Below the pieces are notes generated by a model that searched no databases, was not told the origin of the DNA, and saw only the letters and a list, made by a program, of their open reading frames with translations. Shown in pieces: positions 2,000 through 28,557 of a stretch of DNA of 64,000 nt. The position numbers and the translations under genes were made by a program. The stretch lies in contig JABYQR010000270.1 of the NCBI GenBank assembly GCA_022592445.1, positions 1 to 64,000 on the forward strand, in the 5' to 3' direction. Within the stretch, counting starts at the first letter, position 1. Each line of letters starts with the position of its first letter. The DNA comes from Cytidiella melzeri (lineage: Eukaryota; Basidiomycota; Agaricomycetes; Polyporales; Irpicaceae).

Positions 2000-2529
2000 T
2001 ACAACCAAAAGCAATCAAGGATCAAGTCGTAGTACGGAATGTACACTTCAGAGATATGAGGTACTACAGGTGCAATTACAGGTGATGACGTCCGTTTAGA
2101 AGTTTCTTCTAGAAGATCTTTGACTTCGGTATTTTCTCCGGAATCTGAGTTCTTATCTAGAGATTGATTGGATGTGTCACGAATGTAAGTTGTGCCTGTG
2201 ATGATCTCTGATGGTTCCTGATCTATTACTACTTCTGGTTTGTTGTTCTGTGGTTCTGATTCTCAACAATTTGCTAAGTCTTGAAAGTATGCAGCAACTA
2301 AAGCAGGTACGTCAAGATGCGGTACAGATCCTATGTAACCTCTAATGAGTTCTTTCTGATGTTCAAAAGGTTCAAGATACCGGTCCTGTGTTACCAATGC
2401 AATAATTCTATAAACTTCGTTTAAATCTGCTTCAAACAGATATCTATAGCGGTTAGGGCACGGTTGTGTTTCACAGGGTCTTGCAACACTGTTGACGTCA
2501 CAAAAGTTCTCTGAGTCAAAGGGTGCAAT
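1999..2529 (-). pseudogene. Extra ORF3 of element A (TQPCPxR protein), broken
   Basis: In the minus-strand frame just upstream of gag there is a long open stretch with ETQPCPNR, then PHLD about 60 codons later, then an acidic and Ser-rich tail, and a hydrophobic end (YYDLILDCFWL) before TAA. Element C has the same layout (VTQPCPYR, PHLD, acidic tail, FDIVYFFLP). An in-frame TGA at 2263-2265 interrupts it and another TGA lies at 2530-2532, so this copy is dead. No ATG is seen near the start in either element, so the natural start (splicing or frameshift) is unknown. I do not recognise the family. Confidence 0.7.
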
Positions 2530-2783
2530 TCAGAATTCGTACACGCTAAAGAAGCCAGATTACAACATTACAAACTATGTTAAGAAAAGTCATAAAAGTT
2601 TGTCAGAATGCGCTACGTTATGGTTGTGACTCGAAGCAGAACAAGAGAGAGATAGAGAAAGTATACAAGTACACTACGGACTACGCTAATGAAAAATGAC
2701 CGTTTGTAACAAGTATAAATGTAAACATCGCAATATTTTATAGTATACAGTGCACGGTATAGTTCAATTTGCAGAGAGTCCGT

Positions 2784-4196
2784 TCAAAGAGAAGACGATC
2801 CAGGCTCTGAAGAAGGCTCGAGCGCAGCGGGCTCGATCTTTACCTCCTTCATTTTACCTTTGAACTCTTCCTCCCTATGAAAGATGCTCATCCAGTCTTC
2901 CTTCTTCTCCATATGTCTCTGAGTCAGCCAGACCAGCTGGTGATTGCTTAGATGATTGCGACCATTGAAGACCTCCATCGCTGTGTGAAAGTCCGCAACT
3001 GAGATAAAGTACATGTTCCAGATATTATCGCAGTCCGGCCACTGTCCCCTCTTGAGCTTGAGGTAGATCCAGGCACAGGCTGTGATCTCCTTGATCCGCT
3101 GAGACTTGGCAAATTCCTTCAGCTACTCGACCATCTCACGATAGTGCTCGCATTTGTTGCCCATGTTAACGACCATTGTATCAACCAGTCCCTTAGAGCG
3201 TAAGACCAGCTCATTGGGCGTATAGTTGGAATGTTGAACGTGTTGCATGGCGAGGATGGAACAAACTTGCTCCGGCCTGAAAACCTCCCCCTTTGGTCCA
3301 TCCACGCTGTAAACCATACCACACGCGTAGACAGGCGAAGCCGGCCTAGTGTCTGTACGATCAACGTGGAACCAGTTGTTGAATGAAAAAGTGGGAATGA
3401 CTGGTTGGGGAGCGTATACCGTTGGCCATGAATCTTCAACCTGTCCCTCCTCCTGGGTAGTGGAGGACGGAACCGGAGTAGGCTCGGCAGCAGAAGCGGC
3501 CTGGACTACTGGTTCTGAAGAATCATGAGAAACTGGTGAACTGATATTTAAACCGTTCATACCATCAACGATATCTGGAATGACTGGTGTAGGCGGATTG
3601 ACCATTGTGAAAGAAGTCTGTGGAGATGCAAAATTATTTAATGCTTGGGCAACCATGTCCCAAAGCGATAATCCTGCACTCACAAAAGGCGGTGGCATTG
3701 GAGTAGGATGACGATGAGGATAAGGGTGCAATGACAACGCAGATCGGCGAGGAGGTGCAGCATTAACCCTGGAAGAAGTTTGGGTTTGGTGTGCCCTTAT
3801 TTCCGCGCTGACATTACGAGGCCTTCGTCTGTACAAATCCAATTCCGCCTTTCGATTGGCTTCATTGATAATACGATTAACCTCCCGGAGGTGCCTTTGC
3901 CTGTCACTCTGCCTGAACCTGTCCCAGCTGTGACAACCGAGAAGGCTGTACTCCATCGATTCCATGCGCCTAACGCCGTCACTGTTAACGTAGTTGACAT
4001 TGATCCTGGCATCCTGAGCATCGGTCTGACTCATACGGATAGAGATGGGAGTTTTTGAACTCCTTATCTCCATGATGATGGGGTGACCAATACGGTCAAA
4101 CCGAGTGTAGTCATGAACGCGGTAGGGATCATTGGGAGAATGGGGAGCGAAGCGGGCATGGACGCGACGGGAAGTGCAGCGAGAGTTGTTTGGCAT
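2784..4196 (-). pseudogene. Extra ORF2 of element A, one nonsense mutation
   Basis: The frame runs from an ATG at 4196 (in the context TTTTGAAGATGCC, nearly identical in element C) to a stop at 2784, about 470 codons, with one internal TAG at 3123-3125. The N-terminal third is Arg-rich and the middle is Pro/Ser-rich and low in complexity. The last 130 residues look folded and match the element C protein, sharing the DFHTAM motif and a following segment ending in DDW or EDW. No known domain is recognised. A nucleic-acid-binding or structural role is only a guess from composition. Confidence 0.72.
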
Positions 4197-4951: not shown

Positions 4952-4960
4952 CTCCCCTTC
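4952..4960 (-). other. Polypurine tract of element B
   Basis: GAAGGGGAG on the minus strand, immediately upstream of the 3' LTR and overlapping the end of the pol frame. Confidence 0.8.
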
Positions 4961-6982
4961 AAGCACGAATATGAAGTAGTTCATTGAAGGGCTTGATTTT
5001 TTCGAGAGGTAGTGCTTTAGTAAGTGTATCAGCACGTTGATTGTTAGAAGATATGTGATGAATAGTTATATACTTCTTGAGTACATGATTGCTGATGAAA
5101 TTCTTACAAATCTCGAAGTGTTTAGTTTGTTGCAAATGTTGCTCATCAGGTGAGCTAACAATGGCAATAGTTGATGCACTGTCAGTATACATTTTGACAG
5201 GATCCATAGTAAAGTTAAGTAGTTCGTCAATGAGTGCTTTTAGATATATAGCCTCAGTAGATGCATGCGCTAAGGCATATAATTTGGCTTCGGTGACCGA
5301 TAGTGTTACTAGTGAACCGCGCTTACTTGACCAAGAGATAAGCGACTCATTGTAGGTAAAGGTGTAGCCCATTATTGGTTTATTGCCGTATGTAGTCATA
5401 CCGTCAGAATCAGTGTATCCGACAAGTGAAGTATTAGTAGTAGTTGCGTGGTTTCCTAGGACAAGCCAGTAATTGCACATTCCCTTCAAGTATAGGTAAC
5501 ACTGTTTAGCTGCAGCAAAGTGTTCCTTAGAAGGGTCAGCTAAGTATCGTGCAAGTTGACCAGTGCAGTATGCAACGTCTGGTCGAGTACAGTCAGCGAC
5601 GTATCGTAAACCACCAACTAAAGACATGTATTGTTTGATAGCGTCAGCGTCCTGATGAGTTTCTTTCGAGTCATGGGGGGCTAAGTTGTGCTCGTGTATC
5701 ATAGGTGTACGGCGTGTATGATCATGGTCAAAGTTGTTTCGTTTGAGTATAGTTTGGATATAATCGCGTTGATGAAGCTTGATAACACCAGAGGCTTTGC
5801 CGTAACCGATCTCCATGCCAAGCATCCAGTGGATAGTACCACCGTTTGTTACTTCGACATGTTGTCTAAGTGCTATCTCAAATTGTTCAGCAACAACAGA
5901 AGTAATAGTACAGAGAGTAATATCGTCGACATGAACAGCGAGTATAAGTATTAGTTTGTCTCCCTTGTAAAGGTAGAAGACAGCGTTATCGTAGTCTGAA
6001 CACTTGAGTCCAAGTTGGAAAAGTATGTCGCATAGTACCTTGTACCAGCAATGTCCGGCTTGTTTAAGGCCATAGATAGTTGTGCGTAGTTTAAGTACCC
6101 AGCCCTTAGGCAAGTTGGGCAGTAAGTTGCCTGGCGGCGGACGAGGATAAAGATCTTCATCATTGTTGATTTTACTGTATAAGTAAGCAGACTTAACATC
6201 GAGTTGGTTAATCTCGAAGTGTAGTGAAGCCGCAAGTGTAAGTATGAGTCGCATAGAACTAATGCGCGCGACTGGAGCGAACAAGTTGTTTGCATAGTAA
6301 TCAATACCATCACGCTGAGAGTATCCTTGCGCAACAAGTCTTGACTTGAGTTTAGTAACTTTGCCATGTTCGTACTTGGTCTTGTAGACGAAGCGAGAAC
6401 CAGTAATGTTGGCATTTGGTGGCGGGATACAGTATTCCCAAGTGCCGAGTTGTTCTAGTGTATCAACCTCGAGTTTCATAGACTTAAACCAATTGTCTTT
6501 GAGAGGGTGATTCAGTACATCTTTGAAAGTGACAGGGTCACCGACGTCCTCAGCATAGTAAGCGTTAAACTCAGTTTAGTAGAAAGCAATGTTAGTGTCT
6601 ACTTCGTCGTAGTTTAGACCACAAGCTTTACACAATAGTTGAGGAGTTCTGTTGGAACGCCTTGGACCAGTAGGGTCAGGCTTGTCGATTTCCATTGGTT
6701 CTATGTGAGGGTTGTCCTCAAGTTCAAGTTGTTTTTCAGTAGTAAGTTTTTCGACATTTGGTTCTTTCTCCCCTTCAATTTGTATTGTAGAGTCAACAAA
6801 TTGCAAGTTACGTTCAACTCTGACACATTGTCCAAAGTAAACGTAGTGACCTTTAGATTGTTCAGCAAAGCCTATCCAGACTCCCCTTTTACCCTTAGAT
6901 GCTAGTTTATTTGTGCGATATTTGTCGTATACAATGCACGGCTGACCGAAGACTTGAAGTCCATCAAGGTTAGCATCGGTGC
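4959..6982 (-). pseudogene. Element B reverse transcriptase and RNase H, plus linker to integrase
   Basis: The minus-strand frame resumes after the solo LTR (from 6982) with the integrase C-terminal segment, a Pro/Glu-rich linker, one TAA stop (6578-6576), then Copia reverse transcriptase: SRFVYKTKYEHGKVTKLKSR, the LDVKSAYLYSKI block with a catalytic Asp, and a VHVDD box where YVDD is usual. RNase H follows. Its second acidic motif reads TEAKLYAL (Lys codon at 5283-5285) where Copia elements have TEAE, so the nuclease is probably dead. It ends in an ADTLTK tail typical of Copia. Without the stop and the LTRs this would be the C-terminal half of a single polyprotein. Confidence 0.88.
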
Positions 6983-6987
6983 CATAT

Positions 6988-7534
6988 TGTTAAAACTGTA
7001 TAATATAATATGATATGATATGTAGTTTCCCACGCCTTATTACAAGGACACTTTAGGTAGCAGAGTTCCCACAGTCTTGATATGGGAATTATGCAGCCGT
7101 ATATGGAAACTCAAGTAGTAACCATCACATTAGCTGAGACGTACAGATATGGGTTGTAGTAATACTATACATATATGTACGCCTGTGTTCTAGTAGCATA
7201 GGAAATGACATGGAAAGCACGTATGACTCCAGAGGATGCCTAAAGCATACATCTAAGGACAAGTACTAGCATGAGTCATTTACTCATTATGTACGCCTCT
7301 GGTACAAGTGCTGAGCCTAGTCATACAATGAGTCATGCACTCATAGCATGAGTCATGCATAAGTCATGCAACTAGTAATACAGTAGAATAGCTGAAGTAG
7401 ACATGTATAGTAGTTGCTTACATAAGTAGATACAGACATGTATATAAGCAGAGCTGCTGAAGCAGCAACAATAATAAGACTCATCTTCGAAGCTTAATAG
7501 CCTCTACCCCTCGCACACATATTCCACTTTGTTA
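6988..7534 (+). mobile_element. Solo LTR of the element A family inside element B
   Basis: This 547-bp unit starts TGTTAAAACTG and ends CACTTTGTTA, flanked by the 5-bp duplication CATAT (6983-6987 and 7535-7539). It is nearly identical to the 5' LTR of element A (11423-11902, opposite strand) and to 12595-13132. It has a TATA box (TATATAAG near 7441) and three TGAGTCA sites (7272, 7329, 7349). No internal region remains, as expected after LTR-LTR recombination. It splits the pol frame of B within the integrase C-terminal region. Confidence 0.92.
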
Positions 7535-8535
7535 CATATCGCTTAAAGTAAGGAGTTTTGTAGTTAAGTATAGTATGAGGAGAACGATTGTACACATACA
7601 TCGCGTATAATGCAGCGTACCACCATAGTTGATTTGGTAAAGATGCAGTATGCAGGTTTACTCGAATCAACTTCATAATAGTTTGATGTACACGCTCAGC
7701 AACACTGTTTTGCTGAGGAGTACCGTGTACAGTAAGACGTAGTATAGTTCCTTGAATTTTCAAGTAAACAGTCATAGCTTTACTGGTAAAGACACCGTTG
7801 TTATTGGCTTGAAGTATCTTGACACAAATACCATATTGCGTTAAAAGTTCAGTAGAGAAAATGACCCATTGAGTATAGGCGTCATCTTTAGTAACTAGTG
7901 GTGCAAGTATCAACCATCTAGTAGCATCGTCGATGATAGTCAACCAGTATTTATGTTTACCAGTAATCGACGCTGTGGGTAGAGGCCCAAAGATGTCGAT
8001 ATGAAAATGATCTCCGAAAGCTTCAGCTAACAATGAAGAACAAAGTTTAGGTACGGTATTGCGATGGATATTGTTAAGTAAACAATCCTTGCACGGAGTT
8101 TCAGTATGGTCAGTTATATGATCAGTAATGATTGACGAAGTTTGAAGTAGTTTCTTGATCATGAAGTAACTGAGATGAACAAGTTTTTTATGTAATTCAA
8201 GTAGAGTAATGCCAGTTCTATGCATGCTTGCTAAAGAAGTCACTCGAGTTGATGATAGCGTGTATAAATCATTTGATTTTCTAACAACAGCCACACAAGT
8301 CGAGTTTGAGTCGTATATAGTACAAAGATTGTTATGGAAAGTAAAACGATAATCAAAGTCCAGTTTTCCAACGCTGATTAAAGTAAAAGGTAGGGTTGAG
8401 TTGAAGTAGACGTTCTTTAGCAAGAGTTCAGTAAGCTTACCACTTTCCTGTTCCACCTCAAGTACCATGTCACCAGCGAGTTTCAAAACTAGTTGTTCTG
8501 AGTTGGCAACAGTCAGTACGATAGTTGGTACGGAG
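7535..8535 (-). pseudogene. Element B integrase, with second catalytic Asp lost
   Basis: This is the minus-strand frame between the two solo LTRs. A GAG-pre-integrase His/Cys finger is visible (LHKKLVH, then CKDC). The catalytic core follows, with the first Asp in HIDIFGPL and the third acid in HGTPQQNSVAER. The middle motif, usually SDNGGEF, reads ANNNGVF, so the second catalytic Asp is Asn (codon 7805-7803). The frame enters from 8535 in phase with the gag frame beyond the solo LTR, and leaves at 7535 in phase with the downstream pol frame. Confidence 0.88.
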
Positions 8536-11212: not shown

Positions 11213-11407
11213 AGGGGCAAGTAGGTGAGGGAATTAGCTGTAGAAAATCAGTTGGGAATATTGTATTCGAAGCTGAGGCAGTCAACCAGTACAACTCTAC
11301 TACTATGTGGCCAAACAAAGTAAAGTAGAGAAACTTACTTATAAGAAAGCTTGGGGGATACTGGTTGATGAATGTTGTTGAGAGTGTGGATGTCGTTAAG
11401 TTAAAAG
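11213..11407 (-). other. Leader of element A, upstream half
   Basis: Non-coding. On the minus strand it carries a GTAAGT (11338-11333) at the place where the element C leader has GTGAGT, then conserved GGCCAC and TACAG...CCC blocks shared with element C. Confidence 0.55.
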
Positions 11408-15659: not shown

Positions 15660-16754
15660 AGTTGGAATACTTGACGTTAATCTCCCACCCAATTGTCACA
15701 CTGCGGGCAAAGGCCGATTTCACATGACGTGAAATGATTGTGAGAGTTATTTGATATGTTAAAAATCCCGTGAATATATAGTTATGTTTGGGGGGTTAGA
15801 TTAATATACAATCAAAGACATTTTTGTGATTTTTCTACAAATTTTCAAGCCTATCTACTGGCAGCCTTTCCGCGCTCCGAAAATCTGTGTGAATATTGAT
15901 TTTTCGGGCAGATTTCCGACCGACCTAAAATTGTAAAAACAATTAGATTTCCCACGTGTGTCGGGTGATGGCAAACATAACGTGGCAAACAACTTTCACG
16001 AACTTTTCGGTAGCACGTGCATGCAACGAGGTAGGCCGCCGGAAATTCTACCCGCCCTTTCCTTTTCTTGATTTTTTCATGCCCTTTTCCCACGCCCCGC
16101 CGAATCCGTGGAAGGCATCTTTTCCACTTGGTTTTCTGAGCCTTGAAAGGTAACTTTCCTTTCATTTTTCTTTTTGATTTAACTACCACTTAAACAACAG
16201 AAATTCCTGCGCCGGAAAAGCCACAGAATTTGTATAGCATTATTTTGTATTCTCAAACATTAAGAAACAATTCCGAGCCCAAAATTGCCTATGGATTATC
16301 TGCTGATAGTTAACATTTAAATGGGTAATCATGCAAATTTCAAGGCGTGTGAAATCGGTGTTTGCCCCTAGTGTCAGCACTAATGAAACTCCGCTAGGCG
16401 CGGGCTGATGGCGGCACACCGGGAGCTTGGCGGGGGACTTGGGCCATTTGTGAGCTCATCAATAGCTAGTACACATGGTAATCTTAGGCAACTACATAGT
16501 AAAGTGGATATGATTATGAGGGTACATATTTCAGTATATAAGAGAGTACATATTTTGGTATATAAGACTGTTACATAGTGTACAAAACTCACTGATGGCA
16601 TTGTAAATCTTCCAATTCCCCTTTTCCAGTAAAGCTCTATTTATGCCTCTGTCAGGCTCTTTTTTCTTCTGTTTGCACTGCTCACACACTCACACATGTA
16701 TCATAGTGTATCAAGGTTACTTAAATGGCCTTCGGGGCAGCCACCCTGTTGCAA
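15660..16754. repeat. Older repeat unit, inverted copy of 18530-18955, carrying a MITE
   Basis: Outside the MITE (15699-16373), this stretch matches the reverse complement of 18530-18955: CTCCCACCCAATTGTCA...TCAGCACTAATGAAACTCCGC and a downstream block around GTTTGCACTGCTCACACACT. It holds TATA-like TATATAAGA motifs near 16538 and 16560. It may be a degenerate LTR, but no clean ends were found. Confidence 0.7.
15699..16373. mobile_element. CACTA-type MITE, copy 1
   Basis: This 675-bp non-coding unit has terminal inverted repeats of about 25 bp, CACTGCGGGCAAAGGCCG at the left and CACTAGGGGCAAACACCG at the right on the opposite strand, both continuing to ATTTCAC. The 3-bp duplication TCA flanks it. 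The related repeat near 18915-18920 has the uninterrupted target AATTGTCAGCAC, so this is a real insertion. CACTA ends and a 3-bp duplication fit the CACTA (CMC/EnSpm) superfamily. No transposase frame is present, so it moves in trans if at all. Confidence 0.85.
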
Positions 16755-16865: not shown

Positions 16866-17088
16866 AAAGCGATATTGTATTGCTGATTATCAGAGATCAG
16901 ATCTATGGACAATGTAGATTAGATATGTAGATAGATAAGATCAGATAGTACATAGCATGTGATTCCACCATCCTTATGGTCACACACGATGCGATACTTG
17001 CACCATATGGCATTGTGTTCCAGTAGTTTCCATGACTGAATAGCAGAAGTACCATGAGGCTTCTGCATGACTCATATTTCATATACCT
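16866..17088 (+). repeat. Truncated LTR of the element C family
   Basis: Matches the first half of the element C LTR (from AAGCGATATTGTATTGCTG to CATATACC), then stops abruptly. No partner or target duplication is seen. Confidence 0.85.
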
Positions 17089-17486
17089 AAATGCCGTGAT
17101 GGCCAGACTACACTGAGTATCTAGGAACGGGGCTGCCACTCGGTGATGTCTGAGGGTGGTCCGGAGAAGAAAGCACCTTTAAGCATGTCAAACAGAGGGT
17201 CTGGCACAGGGTAAGCATGAGATTATATATTACAACGCATACGGCGTACCTGGCACAGGGTAAGCAAGAGATGCTGAACCCCTGTGCCTTTCGAGTCAAT
17301 TTATACAAAATGTTCGATCAGCGGGAATCCATGTATAGTAACCCGACCGTCTCTCTGCGCTGATGCGCCTCCAGTTCCCATATCCGTCTCACTTCGTACC
17401 TCCGCGCGTGTCACCAATTGACAAAGCACGAGAAAGCAGGACACAAGGAGATAACTCAACTCACCATCAGGTAGTGGGGAAACAAA
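17089..17486. other. No gene seen; small direct repeat
   Basis: Intergenic. A CTGGCACAGGGTAAGCA unit occurs twice (near 17210 and 17250). No supported coding frame. Confidence 0.5.
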
Positions 17487-18529: not shown

Positions 18530-18955
18530 AGACAGGGTGACTGTCCCAAAGACCATCTAAGTAACAATGATACACTATGAAACATGTGTCAGTGTGTGAG
18601 CAGTGCAAACAGAAGAAACAAAGAGCCTGACAGAGGCATGAATAGGGCTTTACTGGAAAAGGGGAATTTCAAGATTCACAATGCCACCAGTAAGGTTTTG
18701 TCCACTGTGTAGAAGCTTGATATACCAACATTTGTACTCTCTTGGATACTATGCTATACTAAAATATGTACACTCTTAATCACATCAATGTCCCATGCAG
18801 TTGCCTAGGATTACTATGTGTACCAGCTATTGATGAGGTTACAAATCACTCAAGTCCCCCGCCGAGCTCTCGGTTTGCTGCCATCAGCCCGCGTCTAGCG
18901 GAGTTTCATTAGTGCTGACAATTGGGTGGGAAATTAACATCAAGTAGTTGGAAGC
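18530..18955. repeat. Inverted partner of 15660-16754, without MITE
   Basis: The reverse complement of the repeat at 15660-16754. It keeps the empty MITE target site (GCTGACAATTGGG near 18915). Divergence is moderate, so the duplication is old. Confidence 0.7.
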
Positions 18956-18995
18956 TATGCCGCCTTTGTGCCAGTGTTACCACTGCCTTCAGAGC

Positions 18996-19518
18996 TGTCA
19001 AAGCGAGATTGTATCGCTAATTATCGGACATCAGATCTATGGACAATATAGGATAGATATATAGATAGATAAGATCAGATAGTACATAGCATGTGATTCC
19101 ACCATCCTTATGGTCACACACGATGCGATACTTGCACCATATGGCATCGTGTTCCAGTAGTTTCCATGACTGAATAGCAGAAGTACCATGAGGCTTCTGC
19201 ATGACTCATATTTCATATACCAAATGTATTGAGCTTACTAAAGGCTCAGTCAGCACCATTCAGTTATGTAGGATGCTCAGTCATCGCTTACATTCTCTAT
19301 TCAGTAGTATTAGCAAGCAGAACTGTGCATTACCAATCATTACTCATAGGATTACCAATCCTTACCAATCCTTACTCATATGACATTACTGTAGCATTAG
19401 TAATCTAGTTACAGACATGTATATATACAGCTCCTAGAGAGCAGAGAAATAACAAGACACTTACTCCCAGAGTTAGTTGACTCTCCTAGTCATCCCCTAC
19501 ACTAGTAACTTTCAAACA
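18996..19518 (+). repeat. 5' LTR of element C
   Basis: Starts TGTCAAAGCGAG and ends CTTTCAAACA. It has a TATATATAC box near 19420 and one TGACTCA (19202). The primer-binding site follows directly. Confidence 0.92.
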
Positions 19519-19533
19519 GGTTATGAGCCCCGG
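19519..19533 (+). promoter_or_regulatory. Primer-binding site of element C
   Basis: GGTTATGAGCCCCGG, identical to the sites in elements A and B and complementary to the tRNA-iMet anticodon arm. Confidence 0.85.
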
Positions 19534-20042
19534 CTTCTAACTCTTCTTACCACTCCTCTACTCTGAAACCATCCTCAAGCTCGACACTACACAACTGTTA
19601 CTTCGTGAGTAACATTTCTTTCTACACTTTGTAGGCCACTTTGTAGTAGAAGACCCAGTTGTAGTAGACTAAGCCTCGCCTCTCCTCGCCCATTATTTCC
19701 ATAACTATATTCTACAGAATTGCCCCTGCTTTCTTACCCCTGGAACACGCGCACAGTCACATCCAATCGGTAGCCTACACCTCATAAGTGTTCTTGGCTT
19801 GTGATTCACTATCAGAATCACGCACCTACTCGGACAAAGCCCAATAAGGTGGCGTCCAGAGGTGATCGAAAGGGTCTTTTGTCTTAGACAATTGGGAGGC
19901 TGTGAAAAGCGGTGAAAGGAAGGAAAGTAGGCATCACCTTGAGCTCGTGACTCAGGGGACTAAAAGGGAGCTGTATACGACGCACAGTTAACACCCTTGG
20001 CATTCCCAATTCGTCGGTTTTTGTAGAATTTAGTAGAGGCTT
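19534..20042 (+). other. Leader of element C with possible intron
   Basis: No coding frame. A donor-like GTGAGT lies at 19605 and an acceptor-like TTTTTGTAG just before ORF1 (near 20020-20028). Both are at positions matched in element A. This suggests a spliced leader for the ORF1-ORF3 transcript, but it is not shown. Confidence 0.45.
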
Positions 20043-20276
20043 ATGTCAAACTTTGTTACTTTTGGTTTCACGGAGATTTTGTCTCCTGCACATTCGCATA
20101 TTAGTTACGCGCGCTCTATTTGTTTCACCATTGCTTATCGTTCGGTTGAAGTTGAATTTGGGGATAATTTTCGTGAAGAATCTCTTGTGCAAGAGTTTTT
20201 CTCACAGTTTATTCCTTTCACAGAAATTCCTCGCACACTTCTGAGAATTATTTTCTGGATCGACACCGATAACTGA
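20043..20276 (+). CDS. Extra ORF1 of element C (77 aa)
   Basis: An intact frame beginning MSNFVTFGFTEI, with SYAR, YRSVEVEFG, ESLV and IPRT segments that also occur in element A. It lies 44 nt before ORF2. It has no signal peptide or membrane segment and no recognised domain. Conservation between two diverged elements indicates that it was translated. Function unknown. Confidence 0.7.
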   Translation: MSNFVTFGFTEILSPAHSHISYARSICFTIAYRSVEVEFGDNFREESLVQEFFSQFIPFTEIPRTLLRIIFWIDTDN

Positions 20277-20320
20277 CGAGCACTTCGACCCGCATTCCGT
20301 TTCACCCACAAATTTTGAAC

Positions 20321-21685
20321 ATGCCCGCCCGCCGTACCAATGCTATCTTCGAAAGGGCTGAACAGCGTTCCAGGGACTGGGAACAGTTTTTGGAAAGACG
20401 TACTGAGCGAGTTCGCCTGGCCGGAGGTAACACTCTGCAAATTCGACAAATCGAACCGAACCAGCTAAGGTTCGATTATGATCATGTGGAATCTACAACG
20501 GATCATCACCATCATACATTCTTCCTCAGTACCATTACAAACCATCAATGGAATACCGAGGCTAGAGAAGCTCGCCGCGCCAATCGAGAGGGGGGAAATT
20601 CGCAAAGCGCACAGTCTAACAATCGTCGCGCCCCTCCTGCCACCTTCGACCGCGAATCCCTTCGCCCCCGTCCGCGTCCACAGGAAGCGGTGAACCGTAT
20701 TATCAACAACATCTGCACCTCCGTTCATGCAGACATGCGTCGAAGGGAGGACAATACTCCTCGTCTTGCCGAGCTCTACGACGAGCAGCAACGCCGCCAG
20801 ACCACCTCTCAGCCCCAAAGGCAGCCGACTGCACCTCGTGGACGAGGTTTCTGCACAAACCACCGTGGACAAGTTCAATTTGAACTGGAGCAAGCCCGTG
20901 CCGCCTGTCGCAGCGAACGGAGCCAGTCTCCACTTCCTCGTCAACCACCTCGCCCACGCACTCCTGCCGTACCCGTTAACGTCAAACAAGACATCCCTAT
21001 GGTTCCGCCGTCACCAGTCACCTCAAGCACCACCATCGTCAACGAGCCCGTCGAAACCATTGAGGAGTTCTTTGGGGAAGAGCGCCCTGTCGCTCCAACC
21101 ACTGAGCTTCATGATGCGAGCTCCTACTGCTTCGAGTGGGACGAATTGACCGGGACTGCGTTGCAAAACGCACAGGACGTCGCTGACAAGATCTGGGATG
21201 GAAAGTTCACCGACGCCGAGCCACACATCATGGATGCCATGTCTTTCATCACGGACAATGGTGTGGTGCTCAAGTCGAACATCGAAGGAGGAGGCTGTCG
21301 CCTATTCTTTGCGCTTGAAGAGGACCAAATCGAGTCGTACAAATTCATTGCAGCATCAGCTCGAGTTGCAATAATGATGCGACACGGTTTTGTCTGGTAT
21401 CGCACAGATGGGGAACGGGAACCATTCCAGCTCCGACACAACGACTTCCACACTGCTATGCAGGTCGTCCAAGGCAACGACAAGTTCAGCGAGCGAAAGC
21501 TTGTTCAAATCATCGCCTGGCGCCTCAAGCAGAACGACGACTGGACCACAATGTCCGAAGAGGTCAAGGACCAAATTCGAGACTGGTCACAGCCAGCTGA
21601 GGAAGGACAAACTGTCGAGCAGCCGACTGAGGAGAATGAGCTTCTCCAGATGTTGGACAGGATGGTAGCTAGAAATAGCGAGTAA
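20321..21685 (+). CDS. Extra ORF2 of element C (454 aa)
   Basis: Starts at the ATG at 20321, in the same local context as element A ORF2 (TTTTGAACATGCC). It begins MPARRTNAIFERAEQRSRDW. Residues 1-90 are charged, with a His run (HHHH). Residues 90-240 are Arg/Pro/Gln-rich. The C-terminal part (about 270-440) looks globular, with GFVWYR, DFHTAMQVV and WRLKQNDDW; DFHTAM is shared with element A. It ends in an acidic tail. The basic disordered front with a folded back half would suit an RNA-binding or assembly protein, but I cannot assign it. It is not an Env-type protein, as no membrane segment is present. Confidence 0.72.
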   Translation: MPARRTNAIFERAEQRSRDWEQFLERRTERVRLAGGNTLQIRQIEPNQLRFDYDHVESTTDHHHHTFFLSTITNHQWNTEAREARRANREGGNSQSAQSNNRRAPPATFDRESLRPRPRPQEAVNRIINNICTSVHADMRRREDNTPRLAELYDEQQRRQTTSQPQRQPTAPRGRGFCTNHRGQVQFELEQARAACRSERSQSPLPRQPPRPRTPAVPVNVKQDIPMVPPSPVTSSTTIVNEPVETIEEFFGEERPVAPTTELHDASSYCFEWDELTGTALQNAQDVADKIWDGKFTDAEPHIMDAMSFITDNGVVLKSNIEGGGCRLFFALEEDQIESYKFIAASARVAIMMRHGFVWYRTDGEREPFQLRHNDFHTAMQVVQGNDKFSERKLVQIIAWRLKQNDDWTTMSEEVKDQIRDWSQPAEEGQTVEQPTEENELLQMLDRMVARNSE

Positions 21686-21876
21686 ACGGGCGACTGAAAC
21701 TTGAGCAATTCTGCACATGTAACATATAAAATATTGCGATGTGTATTTGTACATTTGTACATGGTCACTTTCAACAAGTTTCTGTAGTTGTACTTGTGTA
21801 CTTCTGTACCACCTTTCCTTCGTCTCTGCTGTCTTGTCGAATCATTAGTAACGCGTCTTATGTTTCCTGTAGATAA

Positions 21877-22488
21877 ACTTGTAAAAATCTGGCACCGCGT
21901 TGTAAACAACAATATCACTTCTTCGATACCACAAACAAGTGCGACACATCTTTTGCCTTCTCTGAACGATATCTCTCGTCTTGTGTCACTCAACCTTGTC
22001 CATATCGTCTATTTGGACAAGACAGAGCTGATTACTTTGAAGACACCAATCCAGTTGCTGTATACTCTGAAGGACGATATATCATTCCTAACGACAAACA
22101 GCTCGGTGAAATCAATCCAGAGAATATCGGAGAAGAACCGCATCTTGATTGGGATCTTATTGTTGACAACACTTCAACTCCATCCTCACCATCTCCGGAA
22201 CCTCGAACCGGAGAAGAAGAATCTATACCCGCGATCACAGCAGTTGCAGTTTCATCAGCGTCTACGTTAATCGAATCTCCGCCACGTCGATCAAAGGTAG
22301 ACATACCAGATACAATCGAATCTGCATCAGAATCTGACTCTGAAGTAGAACATCTTCTAGACGAAGATAGTGACATCGAGGACAACGCTCTTGAACCGCT
22401 TCTACCAGAAATACCCCTGTTGATCAACGAATACTATAGTAGATTTCACGGAGAGGAGTTTGATATCGTATACTTCTTCTTACCATGA
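21877..22488 (+). CDS. Extra ORF3 of element C (TQPCPxR protein), start unknown
   Basis: This frame is open from 21877 to the TGA at 22486-22488. It has VTQPCPYR, then EPHLDWD, a long Ser/Glu/Asp-rich region and a hydrophobic end FDIVYFFLP. Element A keeps the same motifs in order. No ATG lies in frame before the TQPCP motif, so the start must come from splicing, a frameshift or a non-ATG codon. The stop overlaps the gag start (ATGA). No family is recognised; the two Cys flanking the motif could bind metal, but that is only inference. Confidence 0.6.
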   Translation, partial: TCKNLAPRCKQQYHFFDTTNKCDTSFAFSERYLSSCVTQPCPYRLFGQDRADYFEDTNPVAVYSEGRYIIPNDKQLGEINPENIGEEPHLDWDLIVDNTSTPSSPSPEPRTGEEESIPAITAVAVSSASTLIESPPRRSKVDIPDTIESASESDSEVEHLLDEDSDIEDNALEPLLPEIPLLINEYYSRFHGEEFDIVYFFLP

Positions 22489-25400
22489 GTTCCAACGAAA
22501 TCCAGAAGCTAGCTAAGGATGACAAACCAGTTCTTAAAGGCGATAACTATCAAGAATGGAGGATGGCTATGCAGGCCACTCTGATGTTCATTGATGGTTG
22601 GGACATTGTCACCGGAGCTAGCACGGAACCAGGCTCTCCTGCTGATGCAGCAGTGATTGCTAAATGGAAGACGTTGAATATACGAGCGGCTGGATACCTC
22701 TTGTCAAAGATTTCTTTCATATTATCAAGTCCAAACTTGACACGACAAGATCACTGATGCAAAGTACATCTGGGACACCATGAAGAAAGAGTACAAAAGT
22801 CCAACGTACTCGAGAGCATGGTTGCGTTCAAGAAATTGAACAACCTGGTCTTTGATGAAAATCAAGAAATACGTCCTCAGATCGAAAAGTACCAGACCAT
22901 GATCAAAGATGTCGCTACTGCTGGTCTCACTCTTGACGACAAAATGAAGGCTTTCCTGTTGCTGGGAAAACTTCCTCCTTCATATGATCTTGCTTTATCC
23001 GCATACATCAGCACTATCAATGACCTGAAGAACTTGACCTTGAGTAACATCATTCCTAAGATTGAAGCCGAGGAAACTAGGCGTCTTTCTAACGAAGTAG
23101 GCACCTCTGCTTCGAGGATAACTCAAGTCAAGCGATTCAATAAAGGTTCAAAGAGGTGTGACAGATGTGGCAAGACCAATCATCTACCGAGGACACTGGG
23201 ACACTAAACCGTCCAATAACAATACCGGAAGAACAAGTCGTCTGGAGCGCAGAACAATCAGCAGCAGAACAAGAAGAAACAGGACAACAAGAATGGGAAA
23301 AAGGATCAGAAGGGAAAAGGAAAAGCACGAGTTCAAAGTGTTAATGTAGAAACTATGCCTGTATTCGAGACTGAGTCTTTCGAAATGATCACTGGTTCAC
23401 TCTATTCCTCGCACGAGCGTGATACTGTCCAATGGCTTATTGACAGTGGCGCGAGTAGCCATATCATTAACCAATATTCTGACTTTGTACAATATTCCGC
23501 TGCAGTGAAACCCGGATTCTGTTCGGTTGCAGGAAGGAAAATGTCACTTCAGATATTGGGAAGGGGGACTGTGATTATTGACTCAACGCTCAAAAATGGT
23601 GTAGTAAGCCGTGCCACCCTTCAGAACGTTCTTTATATCCCAGACGCAGTTACTCGATTCTTTGCACCTTGTAAGGCTTTGGCCAATGGCTATACAAGTC
23701 AAATCACAGCGAAAGGCTGGACTATACAAACAAGGGCAAAGATTTCCTGTATGGAAACTGTGACGACGCAGGCATGTACCACATAAATGCGCGCATAGTA
23801 AAGCGACAAGAGACAGTAGCAGCCATAAAGACCTCTGATAATTATCTGTTGTGGCATAATAGGCTAGGACATCCATGGAAGCGCATTGTTGAGAACTTCA
23901 CAAAGGGACTAAGGGATTACCTGAGCGTATCTCTGTTCCTCCTCAACTGCTCCATGCCACGGATGTGAACTTGGTCGAGGAAAGCAACTTCCAAAACCAC
24001 CCTCTTTATCACGAGCCAAGGAGCCACTAGAACTGGTTCACTCAGACTTAGTTGAATTTCCTTCGCTTTCGATTGATGGTTATAAGTACGCCATGACTCT
24101 CTTAGACGATGCTACTGGTATGGGGGAACAATGTTACCTCAAGCATAAAAACCAAGCATTATCCGAGTTTAAGAGATGGAAAACATGGGCGGAAAACCAG
24201 ACTGGTCGAAAGATGAAGAAGTTTCACAGTGATAGGGGTACAGAGTTCTTGAATGATGGTTCACTAAATACCTACATCAGTATGGTATAGAACATCAGAC
24301 ATCCACGCCTTATTCGCATCAGCAAATGGTAGAGCGGAACGATGGCAGCAGACAATTGTTTATAAAGCAGAAGCCATGCGTCACCACGCTGGTCTTTCTA
24401 ACGGCTTTTGGAAGTTGTCATGCGAGGCTGCCGTATATGTTTAAACCGCCTACCAAGTCAGCGTCTTAATTGGCACACACCTATTGAGAAATTTTGGGTG
24501 AAAAACCTGATATTTCTCGCCTTCGTGTATTTGGATGTCGCGCATACGTCTTTATACACAAGGAACGTCGTCAGAACAAGCTGTCTGCCAAGGCAGCTCC
24601 TATGATATTCGTTGGATATGAACCTGGTCTTAAGGGTTACCGGTTCTGGGATAAACAACGGATAGTCTTAGCGACCGACGTAAAGTTTGACGAGAATACT
24701 TTCCCATATCGTACCGATCTTGATACTTCTCTTTCCAAACAACCCCAATCCGACGATAATCCACAACCTCTACATGATATCGATTTACCTTTTGTTGATG
24801 AGGACGATGATGCTGGTCACAATGAGCTTGATGATAGAGATGATAATCATCCAAGACAACAAGAACCGCAGAATCCTCCTCAGCAGCCTGTACCTCAGCC
24901 GAGAGCACCCAGTCGTAATACCCGCGGCACACCAGTCAGTAGACCGCAGCAAGCACTGCCTCAGCCTTCACGTTCAAACGCACGTCAACCAGTACAGCAG
25001 CAACCACCGTCTCGACCAAAGAGATCAACTGCTGGAAAGAATCCTTCGCTTGGCTTTAATCCAGTCGACAAGTGAAGCGTAATGAACAGGCAGTTGCACG
25101 CGATAAGGGTGTTGAAAAGCGACAAAAGGAGCAAACGGCTAAATGGAGAGAATCAACGAAGCCAGCAGTACCTGGACCAGTAAGACGTACAGCGTCTAAT
25201 CCAGTACCTGGATCTTCTAGATTACCTTCGACACCGGAGGAATCGAACATTGATCTCCCATCTGATCTACCGAGTCAATCGGAGGGTCAATCTGAATCTC
25301 TAGAACATATATTGTCTTCATATGTCACGGCGTTCGCAATGAACGAATTTCCTCAGACTTGGAAACAAGCGATGAAAAGTGACAATAGAGATTTATGGTA

Positions 25401-26901
25401 CGCTGCTGCACAAGACGAAATTGCCTCTCAAATGAAGAATGGCACTTGGAAGCTTGTTAAACGACCAGACCCTTCACGAAAAATAGTCAAATGCAAATGG
25501 GTCTTTGCAGTCAAATCTGACGGTCGTTACAAAGCACGTCTTGTAGCAAAAGGCTTCACGCAAGTTGAAGGAATCGATTATCAAGAAACCTTCTCACCAG
25601 TCGCACGTTTTGAGTCCATCCGCACGCTACTAGCTATAGCTGCACTCGAGAATTGGGAAATCGAGGCACTGGACGTAAAAACAGCATTCCTGTACGGCGA
25701 ACTGGATGAGGAAATCTATATGGAACAACCAGAAGGTTTCGTAGAGAAGGGAAAAGAGAACCATGTTTGTTTGCTTAAGAAAGCCATTTATGGACTTAAA
25801 CAAGCTTCACGAACTTGGAATATCAAAATACACAATACGCTTGTAGCTTTAGGCTTTGAACGTATTGAGTCCGATGCTGGTGTATACATATATCACCAAC
25901 AAGGGGGGACTTTGATGCTTATCCTCTATGTTGATGATATATTTCCTATTGGCAACGATAAAGCTGGGATCAAAGCACTCAAAACAAATCTCATGAATCA
26001 ATATGAGATGCGTGACTTAGGAGAAGCAAAGCTAATCCTAGGCATGCAAGTGCATAGAAATCGTAAAGAGCGTACACTCTACCTTTCTCAAGGGTCGTAC
26101 ATTGAAGATGCTCTTAAACGTTTTCAAATGATCAATGCTAATCCTGCCCGTACACCTTTACCATCTGGACTAGAACTTCGTAAAGCAGATTCCGACTATA
26201 CAGCGGAACATGAGCTTAGGAGTTCATATCAAGCCTTGATTGGTACACTCATATATGTTATGATTGGTACTCGTCCCGACATTTCATATGCTGTCATACG
26301 TCTTTCTCAGTATATGTCAAATCCCACTCAGATCCATATGAATGCTGCAAAGTACATACTCCGTTATCTACTTGGTACTCAGTCATATGCTATCAAGTAT
26401 GATGGACGCAGCCAATCTGGACTAGTTGGGTACTCAGACGCAGACTGGGCTGAGAACAAAGACGATAGACACTCCACTACTGGCTATGCATTCCTTCTGG
26501 CCAAAGGCGCAGTGTCATGGGTCTCGAGGAAACAGAAGACCGTAGCACTCTCTTCAATGGAAGCAGAGTACATGGCATTATGCGACACAGCGAGGCAGTG
26601 TGCTTGGATACGTACTATGCTTACGGAATTGGATATGTCACCAAGAGGTCCCACTACGATCTATTGCGACAACCATGGTGCCATCTTCTTCACAAAGAAT
26701 CCAAAGATTGAAGCTCGTTCAAAGCACATTGACATTCGTTACCACTATGTTCGCGAGTTCATAAATGAAGACAAAAAGGCAGAACTCTATGCCATCCCAA
26801 CTGAAGACCAAGTTGCTGATATTATGACCAAGTCATTGGCATTTCAGAAACAGTCTAAATTCAGTGGGAGTCTTGGACTAGTGAACTTCACTGCACCCTA
26901 A
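22485..26901 (+). pseudogene. Element C gag-pol, frameshifted
   Basis: Gag starts at 22485 (MSSNEIQKLAKDD, then LKGDNYQEWRMAM). It shows compensating frame changes near 22740-22810. A damaged zinc knuckle (CDRCGKTNH) lies near 23155, and the protease motif WLIDSGASSHI near 23430. The pre-integrase finger follows, then an integrase core in pieces (HSDRGTEF near 24230, STPYSHQQ near 24300, frameshift after). A Pro/Gln-rich linker precedes a frame break at 25072-25075. From there a 609-codon frame holds intact reverse transcriptase (CKWVFAVKSDG, YVDD near 25930) and RNase H (SSMEAEYMAL, DNHGA). All domains are of the Ty1/Copia order (integrase before reverse transcriptase). At least four frame breaks make the copy non-autonomous. 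Confidence 0.9.
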
Positions 26902-26949
26902 CGAGATGCTGTCATTCAAAGTAGCTCAAAGCAAAATGATGTTGGCATC

Positions 26950-26958
26950 AAGTGGGAG
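26950..26958 (+). other. Polypurine tract of element C
   Basis: AAGTGGGAG just before the 3' LTR start TGTCAAAG. Confidence 0.75.
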
Positions 26959-27480
26959 TGTCAAAGCGAGATTGTATGCTGATTATCGGACATCAGATCT
27001 ATGGACAATGTAGATTAGATATGTAGATAGATAAGATCAGATAGTACATAGCATGTGATTCCACCATCCTTATGGTCACACACGATGCGATACTTGCACC
27101 ATATGGCATCGTGTTCCAGTAGTTTCCATGACTGAATAGCAGAAGTACCATGAGGCTTCTGCATGACTCATATTTCATATACCAAATGTATTGAGCTTAC
27201 TAAAGGCTCAGTCAGCACCATTCAGTTATGTAGGATGCTCAGTCATCGCTTACATTCTCTATTCAGTAGTATTAGCAAGCAGAACTGTGCATTACCAATC
27301 ATTACTCATGGGATTACCAATCCTTACCAATCCTTACTCATATGACATTACTGTAGCATTAGTAATCTAGTTACAGACATGTATATATACAGCTCCTAGA
27401 GAGCAGAGAAATAACAAGACACTTACTCCCAGAGTAAGTTGACTCTCCTAGTCATCCCCTACACTCGTAACTTTCAAACA
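26959..27480 (+). repeat. 3' LTR of element C
   Basis: 522 bp, nearly identical to 18996-19518, followed by the target duplication AGAGC. Confidence 0.92.
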
Positions 27481-27696
27481 AGAGCACGTACTTATGAGCT
27501 GTGTATGATATATATTCTATGGATTACGTACATTGTCATACATTACACTGCACCAAGCAAACAGATAATTGCAGGTGTTTTTCTCTTTGGTCTGCAAGTT
27601 GATTTCGGCTGTTGGTCGTACTGCATGGTGGTTGGAATAGTCATATAGCGTTGCTGGCAGCCGTTTTCAAGGATGCAGTTTTGATCAGCTTAATAA

Positions 27697-28257
27697 CACT
27701 AGGGGCAAACGCCGATTTCACACACCTTGAAATTTGCATGATTACCCACTTAAATGTTAACTATCAGCAGATAATCCATAAGCAATTTTGGGCTCGGAAT
27801 TGTTTCTTAATGTTTGAGAATACAAAATAATGCTATACAAATTCTGTGCCTTTGCAGGGGCAGGAAATTATGTTTTTTAATTGGTAGTTAAACCAGAAAG
27901 AAAAATGAAAGGAAGTTTACCTTTCAAGGCTTGGAAAATCAAGTGGAAAAGATGCCTTCCACGGATTTGGAAAAGGGCATGAAAAAATCCAGAAAAGGAA
28001 AGGGCAGGTAGAATTTCTGGCGACGTGCTACTGAAAAGTTCTGGAAAGTTGTTTGCCACGTTATGTTACCCATCACCCGACACACGTGGGAAATCTATTT
28101 GTCTTTATAATTTTAAGTTGGTTGGAAATCTGCCCAAAAAATCAATATTGACACAGATTTTCGGAGCGCGGAAAGGCTGCCAGTAGATAGGCTTAAAAAT
28201 CTGTAGAAAATTCACAAAAAATTTCACGCCATGTGAAATCAGCCTTTGCCCGCAGTG
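27697..28257. mobile_element. CACTA-type MITE, copy 2 (inverted to copy 1)
   Basis: 561 bp, with ends CACTAGGGGCAAACGCCG and, on the opposite strand, CACTGCGGGCAAAGGCTG. The 3-bp duplication TAA is on both sides. Its interior matches copy 1 (15699-16373) in the opposite orientation with some deletions. Confidence 0.85.
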
Positions 28258-28557
28258 TAATCTAACTTAATGATGTCTGAAGCTGGCTTCAATGAGAAGT
28301 CCATCAGCCACAACAAGCAGAGGGTATATCACACATTAGCACGATCTAGCAGGCAGCCTCGTCAAGCACCAACCCCGGAATTCTCAACAATCATAATTAC
28401 CTGTCAACTGAACCATCCAGTGACTACGGATTTCCTGCATCATGCAACCACACTCATTGACACACTCATTGACACAAAACGGAATCAAACATACATTCTA
28501 TCCAAAAAAAAAACCAACATCATCAAAACGGAAAAAAAGAAGAAAAAAAAACTCCCA

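Follow-up and report, generated by a model that had tools for sequence, protein, structure and literature searches.

Organization of element C

The window, a stretch of 64,000 nucleotides (nt) of Cytidiella melzeri DNA (contig JABYQR010000270.1, positions 1 to 64,000), contains a Ty1/Copia insertion, which we call element C, with three open reading frames (ORFs) and a predicted intron between its primer-binding site (PBS) and gag. Element C and all of its features described here lie on the forward strand. The insertion spans 18996-27480 and is delimited by long terminal repeats (LTRs) of 523 and 522 nt (18996..19518, TG...CA, and 26959..27480) that are 98.1% identical to each other, with the target-site duplication AGAGC at 18991..18995 and again at 27481..27485. 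Immediately inside the 5' LTR, at 19519..19534, lies the PBS GGTTATGAGCCCCGGC, which includes the start of a five-codon ATG frame; from 19519 onwards the PBS reads GGTTATGAGCC, and we take it to be of the half-tRNA-iMet type. Its core motif is common to a second family of elements (family D, below) and to L033 and L034, which are two additional Copia loci in this assembly. The gag-pol frame (22485..26901, beginning with the gag ATG at 22485) is frameshifted in the window copy and was recovered as pieces of gag, Pol_BBD and RVT_2: Pfam assigned a Copia-type gag (Retrotran_gag_2, E 2.4e-10) to the second gag piece, Pol_BBD to 23355-23786 and, behind it, a reverse transcriptase (RT) of the RVT_2 type (E 6.2e-73). 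A gag gene soon after the PBS is a usual Ty1/Copia trait and not a defining one; in element C, gag stands ~2.96 kb from the PBS. L033 and L034 (RT 50-53%) differ from element C in having no such intervening module, and their gag lies ~125 and ~220 nt behind the PBS, respectively.

The intervening segment carries ORF1 (20043..20276, 77 amino acids (aa) in the window copy), ORF2 (20321..21685, 454 aa) and ORF3, which a first-pass annotation of this DNA had described, with ORF3 at 21877-22488, as a single module of three intact frames. All three are indeed open in the window copy, and the intactness goes no further: ORF1 is 14 codons short there, ORF3 has no ATG and other copies are partly broken. 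Nor is the module a single one, since ORF1 and ORF2 lie inside an intron, which that annotation had missed, and ORF3 lies in the next exon.

Copies of the element and a second family with the same gene order

We searched the 49.7 Mb assembly containing the window and found at least 40 places that match ORF2 at the DNA level (40 of 66 candidates scored). Ten long loci of this family C (L019-L028) were read, and a C LTR is present upstream of the module in each of them, so that the module was not seen outside LTR elements in these loci, an occurrence that the first-pass annotation would have counted against its proposal; a partial second copy inside L026 has no C LTR upstream within the locus. 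The supporting pattern named in that annotation, matches confined to Copia elements of fungi, was assessed within this one assembly. The alignment of family C comprised 14 modules, those of the window and 13 loci, L025, which an insertion splits, and the additional L026 copy being excluded; L001, L004, L006 and L008 duplicate the window, L020, L023 and L019, respectively. ORF2 is open in 8/14 of the aligned copies; 12 of the copies extend across ORF3, which is open in five of them.

A tblastn search with ORF3 led to the identification of a distant set of elements, family D, at ~30% identity, of which ten loci (L009-L018) were sampled. The order PBS, ORF1, ORF2 and ORF3 was found in all ten, with gag next in the nine that reach it. 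Between C and D the proteins are 41% (ORF1; BLASTP E 9e-15), 28% (ORF2), 35% (ORF3) and 30% (first 154 aa of gag) identical. The three frames are thus not a product of chance, because ORF2 recurs at so many places and a second family carries the same three proteins. The RTs of the two families are ~84% identical (L019 and L010 were compared for gag; C246, C366 and others for RT), and given only 30% identity at the N end of gag, pol may have been exchanged between C and D by recombination.

A family D copy also lies in the window itself, at 2029-4196 on the reverse strand (ORF3 2029-2520, ORF2 2787-4196). It is adjoined by a Gypsy-like pol fragment, named by eye, at 139-1029 on the forward strand, and an additional family D donor-like site is located at 11326-11349 on the reverse strand.

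An intron recorded by one spliced copy

A strong donor site, GTGAGT, lies at 19605 in element C, ~80 nt after the ATG of the PBS, and family D has a donor ~80 nt after its PBS ATG as well (GTAAGT in 9/10 copies, GTGAGT in 1/10). The acceptor is pyrimidine-rich and reads TTTCCTGTAG in C and TTTACWTAG in D, where a TAG acceptor precedes ORF3 in 10/10 copies. Both sites were fixed from these motifs and from the AUG-free zone described below before we examined copies without the stretch between them. In one of these copies, L029 (C336:34800-37700), 18993-19604 is joined to 21873-22614 with no base gained or lost, so that exactly the 2268 bp of 19605..21872 (GTGAGT...CTGTAG), with ORF1 and ORF2, are absent. 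The two ends of the stretch share no bases that would account for a chance deletion. A genome search allowing up to 3 mismatches found the 19604/21873 junction at one place only, on C336, compared with 61 C donor sites, 57 of which keep the GT.

Besides family D, three loci with ORF3 and without ORF2 were fetched (L029, L030 and L031; fragments on C526 and C428 were left out). L031, which is also short in this region, served as a control, and its deletion does not follow GT/AG; the similarity of L030 to C is confined to 21686-22366. With GT...AG ends and an exact removal in a processed copy both found, our results identify 19605-21872, at the level of genomic sequence, as a spliceosomal intron whose removal is recorded by one genomic copy.

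Coding evidence for ORF1, ORF2 and ORF3

The 91-aa ORF1 of the relative L019 ends 2 nt before the ORF2 ATG, and a stop at this distance is present in 12/14 C copies and in 10/10 D copies, in eight of the latter in frame with ORF1. The ratio of nonsynonymous to synonymous polymorphism (pN/pS) of ORF2 was 0.28 in C (0.83 and 1.35 in the other frames) and 0.14 in D (1.68 and 1.57), values that show strong purifying selection on this frame as judged from the copies compared. ORF3 gave 0.52 in C and 0.46 in D, with 0.76-1.62 in the other frames; by the same measure, purifying selection is weaker here than on ORF2. In both families the first half of the ORF2 protein is basic and rich in Arg (isoelectric points 11.3 and 11.1), whereas its second half is acidic (4.5 and 5.0); the ORF3 protein is acidic and bears Cys and His residues at its N end.

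Consistent with the earlier impression that the three proteins are unlike Gag, Pol and Env, no Pfam family matched ORF1, ORF2 or ORF3 above the cut-off, the best being PID_2 below it (E 0.09). Protein database searches found no homologue of ORF2 or of ORF3, scoring in one of the two being limited to the 7992 candidates that had most words in common with the query, and ORF1 not being part of these searches. The control search with pol in the same database found 7907 of 7961; the fungal names among the 120 pol matches listed are Rhodofomes roseus, Moniliophthora roreri and Trametes species, the top two of the listed matches are unnamed and the best-ranked named one comes from a plant (Hibiscus). 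By sequence, ORF2 had no relative in PDB, and none of 40 pattern matches in viral contigs was related to it. Structure prediction, which had been suggested for the C-terminal part of ORF2 and for ORF3, gave a model of ORF2 too poor to be of help (mean predicted local distance difference test, pLDDT, 34.7), and that of ORF1 was also too poor (37.4). ORF2 may be an RNA-binding helper of the intron-retaining RNA.

AUG depletion and the start of ORF3

Next, we considered how ORF3 and gag may be reached by ribosomes. Exon 2 as far as gag (21873..22484) is without any ATG in the window copy, where 9.4 would be expected, a depletion equalled by 0/1000 shuffles; the corresponding D stretch (L018) also has none, with 8.3 expected, and here 1/1000 shuffles reached zero. 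ORF2 shows no such depletion. The AUG-free zone begins at the acceptor, and upstream of the intronic frames 19526-20042 is also free of ATG in the window copy. In family D, exon 2 is ATG-free in 9/10 copies (L017 was read in part), L016 having one.

The ORF3 frame itself has no ATG, and 21877 is merely the first codon past a stop at 21874..21876, immediately behind the acceptor. This stop is present in 13/13 C copies that reach the place, in 11 of them in frame with a CTG discussed below, and in 9/10 D copies; therefore, once the RNA is spliced, no upstream AUG can join ORF3 in those copies. The first near-cognate codon after the stop is CTG 21889, which has an A at position −3 and a G at position +4 in C and D alike, and it is kept in 13/13 C and 10/10 D copies. 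The protein alignment of C and D begins at this codon, with LAP and LAS, the query having been cut there. Our results slightly favour CUG 21889 as the start of ORF3, which would then span 21889..22488 and encode 199 aa. Its stop overlaps the gag ATG, as ATGA in 12/12 C and as TAATG in 9/9 D copies with data.

Two other routes into ORF3 were considered and set aside. An intron joining ORF2 to ORF3 is disfavoured, since between 19501 and 22500 the donor pattern matched at 19605 alone, and a stop in frame with ORF3 comes right after the acceptor. Readthrough from a hydrophobic mini-ORF starting at ATG 21739 was rejected, as this frame is a different one and ends after 36 codons in 12/14 C copies; it stops earlier in 9/10 D copies, and only in the window copy and L018 does it reach or cross the ORF3 start region in frame.

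The mini-ORF is an observation in its own right. It lies in the intron (21739-21846 in the window, ~36 codons) and has a conserved ATG (MC.CTF.. / MCTF..); it measures 36 codons in the 12 C copies just mentioned and 37 codons in 5/10 D copies, and it is altered in the window copy. It may encode a small membrane peptide or be due to chance.

Conserved non-coding stretches of the intron

To compare C and D at the DNA level we used one copy of each, divided into seven stretches, and 30 shuffles. The intronic leader (19605..20042), which is AUG-free and a candidate packaging or splice-control region, is 67.6% identical between the families (shuffle maximum 63.2%), and 21686-21872, from the ORF2 stop to the acceptor, is 71.4% identical (shuffle maximum 67.9%). 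The latter includes the conserved block TATAAAATATYGCGATGTGTA and the run that follows it up to the splice acceptor (21725..21872). These non-coding parts of the intron are the best conserved of the seven stretches, above ORF1, ORF2, ORF3 and gag. The DNA of ORF1 (65.9%) is barely above its shuffles (64.9), and the stretch from the PBS to the donor (65.4%), ORF2 (59.1%), exon 2 (60.9%) and gag (59.9%) are not above theirs. The leader was predicted to fold only a little better than its shuffles, a difference that was not significant (z −1.74), and a consensus fold of the acceptor region, with four sequences, was too thin and was not used.

A proposed division of labour between two RNAs and its alternatives

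We consider it probable that element C is a Ty1/Copia element with an intron between the PBS and gag and that two RNAs divide the roles of genome and messenger, a division strongly suggested by the genomic evidence. The unspliced RNA would normally be the genome, because a single spliced junction was found compared with 61 donor sites. It would also be translated into ORF1, and into ORF2 by leaky scanning or by reinitiation across the stop-2 nt-ATG arrangement. The spliced RNA would be the Gag-Pol messenger, because few or no AUGs precede gag there, whereas the many AUGs of ORF2 obstruct the unspliced RNA. On the spliced RNA, part of the ribosomes would start at CUG 21889 and produce ORF3, and the remaining ones would scan to the gag AUG or reinitiate past the overlapping ORF3 stop. 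ORF1 and ORF2, which would be made from the intron-retaining RNA only, may favour that RNA through export, splicing restraint or packaging, with the conserved non-coding intron stretches as their likely cis targets. A more far-reaching version, in which the 5' intron carries control genes plus a packaging signal, ORF1 and ORF2 (basic in its N half, acidic in its C half) act on the conserved intron RNA in a Rev-like manner so that the unspliced genome is exported or packaged, and the spliced RNA is the only source of Gag-Pol, is tentative and on balance doubtful.

Several observations weigh against this reading. There is a single spliced copy in all, L029, and family D has no spliced junction in the genome compared with 101 donor-like sites. 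Exon 2 is entirely ATG-free in only 2/12 C copies, with one ATG in 8/12, two in 1/12 and three in 1/12; in eight of the ten copies that have any, one opens a two-codon frame, and L024 and L028 have longer frames only. ORF2 is broken in 6/14 C copies, therefore some of the variation is post-insertion decay. The bootstrap range of ORF3 pN/pS overlaps that of another frame, and the pN/pS of ORF1 (0.48 in C, 0.41 in D) is not frame-specific. Finally, an ATG 12-18 nt 5' of the acceptor is kept in 14/14 C and 10/10 D copies, its phase relative to ORF3 being identical throughout, and therefore an AUG start followed by a −1 shift on the unspliced RNA is a possible entry into ORF3; we disfavour it, since this ATG sits in the intron and no classical slippery heptamer was seen by eye.

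The conserved TATAAAATAT at 21725 is compatible with an internal promoter, from which a short RNA carrying ORF3 and gag-pol would start, splicing being a side event; the conservation of TATAAAATATYGCGATGTGTA between C and D and the AUG-poor zone downstream fit this explanation too. It is nonetheless unlikely, given that an exact GT/AG-spliced copy exists, that the TATA-like box is followed by the last ATGs before exon 2 (21739, 21761 and 21860 in the window, 4606 and 4739 in L018) and that the AUG-free zone starts at the acceptor instead. We hold it to be less likely again that the intron acts mainly as a decoy or buffer, with ORF1 and ORF2 as captured passengers and ORF3 as an AUG-poor leader that only looks open. 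The failure of ORF2 and ORF3 to find homologues or domains in the searches above, the low confidence of the structure models and the lack of frame-specific selection on ORF1 agree with a decoy, yet the contrast in pN/pS between ORF2 (0.14-0.28) and the other frames (0.83-1.68) speaks against it, as does the conservation of all three proteins between C and D.

The spliced copy could itself be read in another way, namely L029 as an ancestral element that predates the module, and the module as a nested insertion instead of an intron, since exactly this segment is missing from L029. This is very improbable. L029 falls among the intron-bearing copies in a tree of 13 tips (with weak local support, 0.38-0.80) and shares up to 98.9% identity with them, and the module occupies the same position in family D, which is much more divergent; because of these two points L029 is most likely a reverse-transcribed copy of the spliced RNA and not the ancestor. 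The segment also ends in GT...AG, has no terminal repeats and no target duplication of its own, so it does not look like the nested transposon with its own ends that the first-pass annotation had offered as an alternative, and its donor and acceptor were predicted from their signals. The division of genome and messenger between two RNAs is the explanation we prefer.

Other features of the window

Inverted-repeat arms with 86-95% complementarity flank element C, 15668-16749 pairing with 18532-18946 and with 27696-28258; they probably belong to another repeat, within or beside which element C lies. At 16882-17181, part of the C LTR recurs as a 72% copy, perhaps a relic LTR. On the reverse strand, 4959-8486 holds pieces that resemble another Copia pol, named by eye.

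Comparison with known systems

Element C resembles the Ty1/Copia elements (Pseudoviridae) with a half-tRNA-iMet PBS in its LTRs, 5-bp duplication, PBS type, Copia gag and RVT_2. In gammaretroviruses, a CUG in good context, 5' of the gag AUG, is the start of glyco-gag, an in-frame extension of Gag; ORF3 of element C, in contrast, uses a different frame from gag and terminates at its AUG. If true, our proposal reverses the retroviral rule that gag is translated from unspliced RNA. It has long been asked how LTR elements prevent a single RNA from acting as genome and messenger at once, and in element C the two roles are apparently separated by an intron 5' of gag. The element also yields three conserved proteins without assigned function and a concrete stop-start arrangement.

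Extra frames upstream of gag have precedents. The claim of the first-pass annotation that in known Copia elements gag directly follows the leader was too strong: a survey of plant elements, in its accessible text, counts 582 Ty1/copia elements with extra ORFs of at least 250 codons, located 5' or 3' (PMC6317226), and plant Ty1/copia elements with 5' extra ORFs may exist. The Ogre/Tat elements (Ty3/gypsy) share with element C an extra ORF between LTR and gag and partial splicing, according to the accessible parts of PMC1142308 and PMC6317226; Ogre differs in the place of its intron, which separates GAG-PROT from RT. According to the accessible text of PMC10508981, an ORF for RNase H precedes gag in some Tat elements of mosses and a clubmoss. 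Orf c of walleye dermal sarcoma virus, directly before gag and 7 bp from its start, is similar in position to ORF3 (PMC3185748); this virus differs in being a fish retrovirus whose orf c is presumed to be made from full-length RNA, and the accessible text mentions no such intron.

With regard to the intron, PMC1142308 (2005) states, in its accessible part, that no retrovirus or LTR retrotransposon was known to have one 5' of gag, and our search of full-text literature, judged from titles and the starts of abstracts and with most subscription journals outside its coverage, gave no case. Among the closest parallels are BARE1 and EVADE, in which, following the accessible text of PMC3735527 and PMC8892269, alternative splicing separates RNA pools and the unspliced RNA is the genome. 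There, splicing gives a Gag-only RNA, with the BARE1 intron just after gag, whereas the intron of element C precedes gag and its spliced RNA, unlike those described for BARE1 and EVADE, should carry all of gag-pol.

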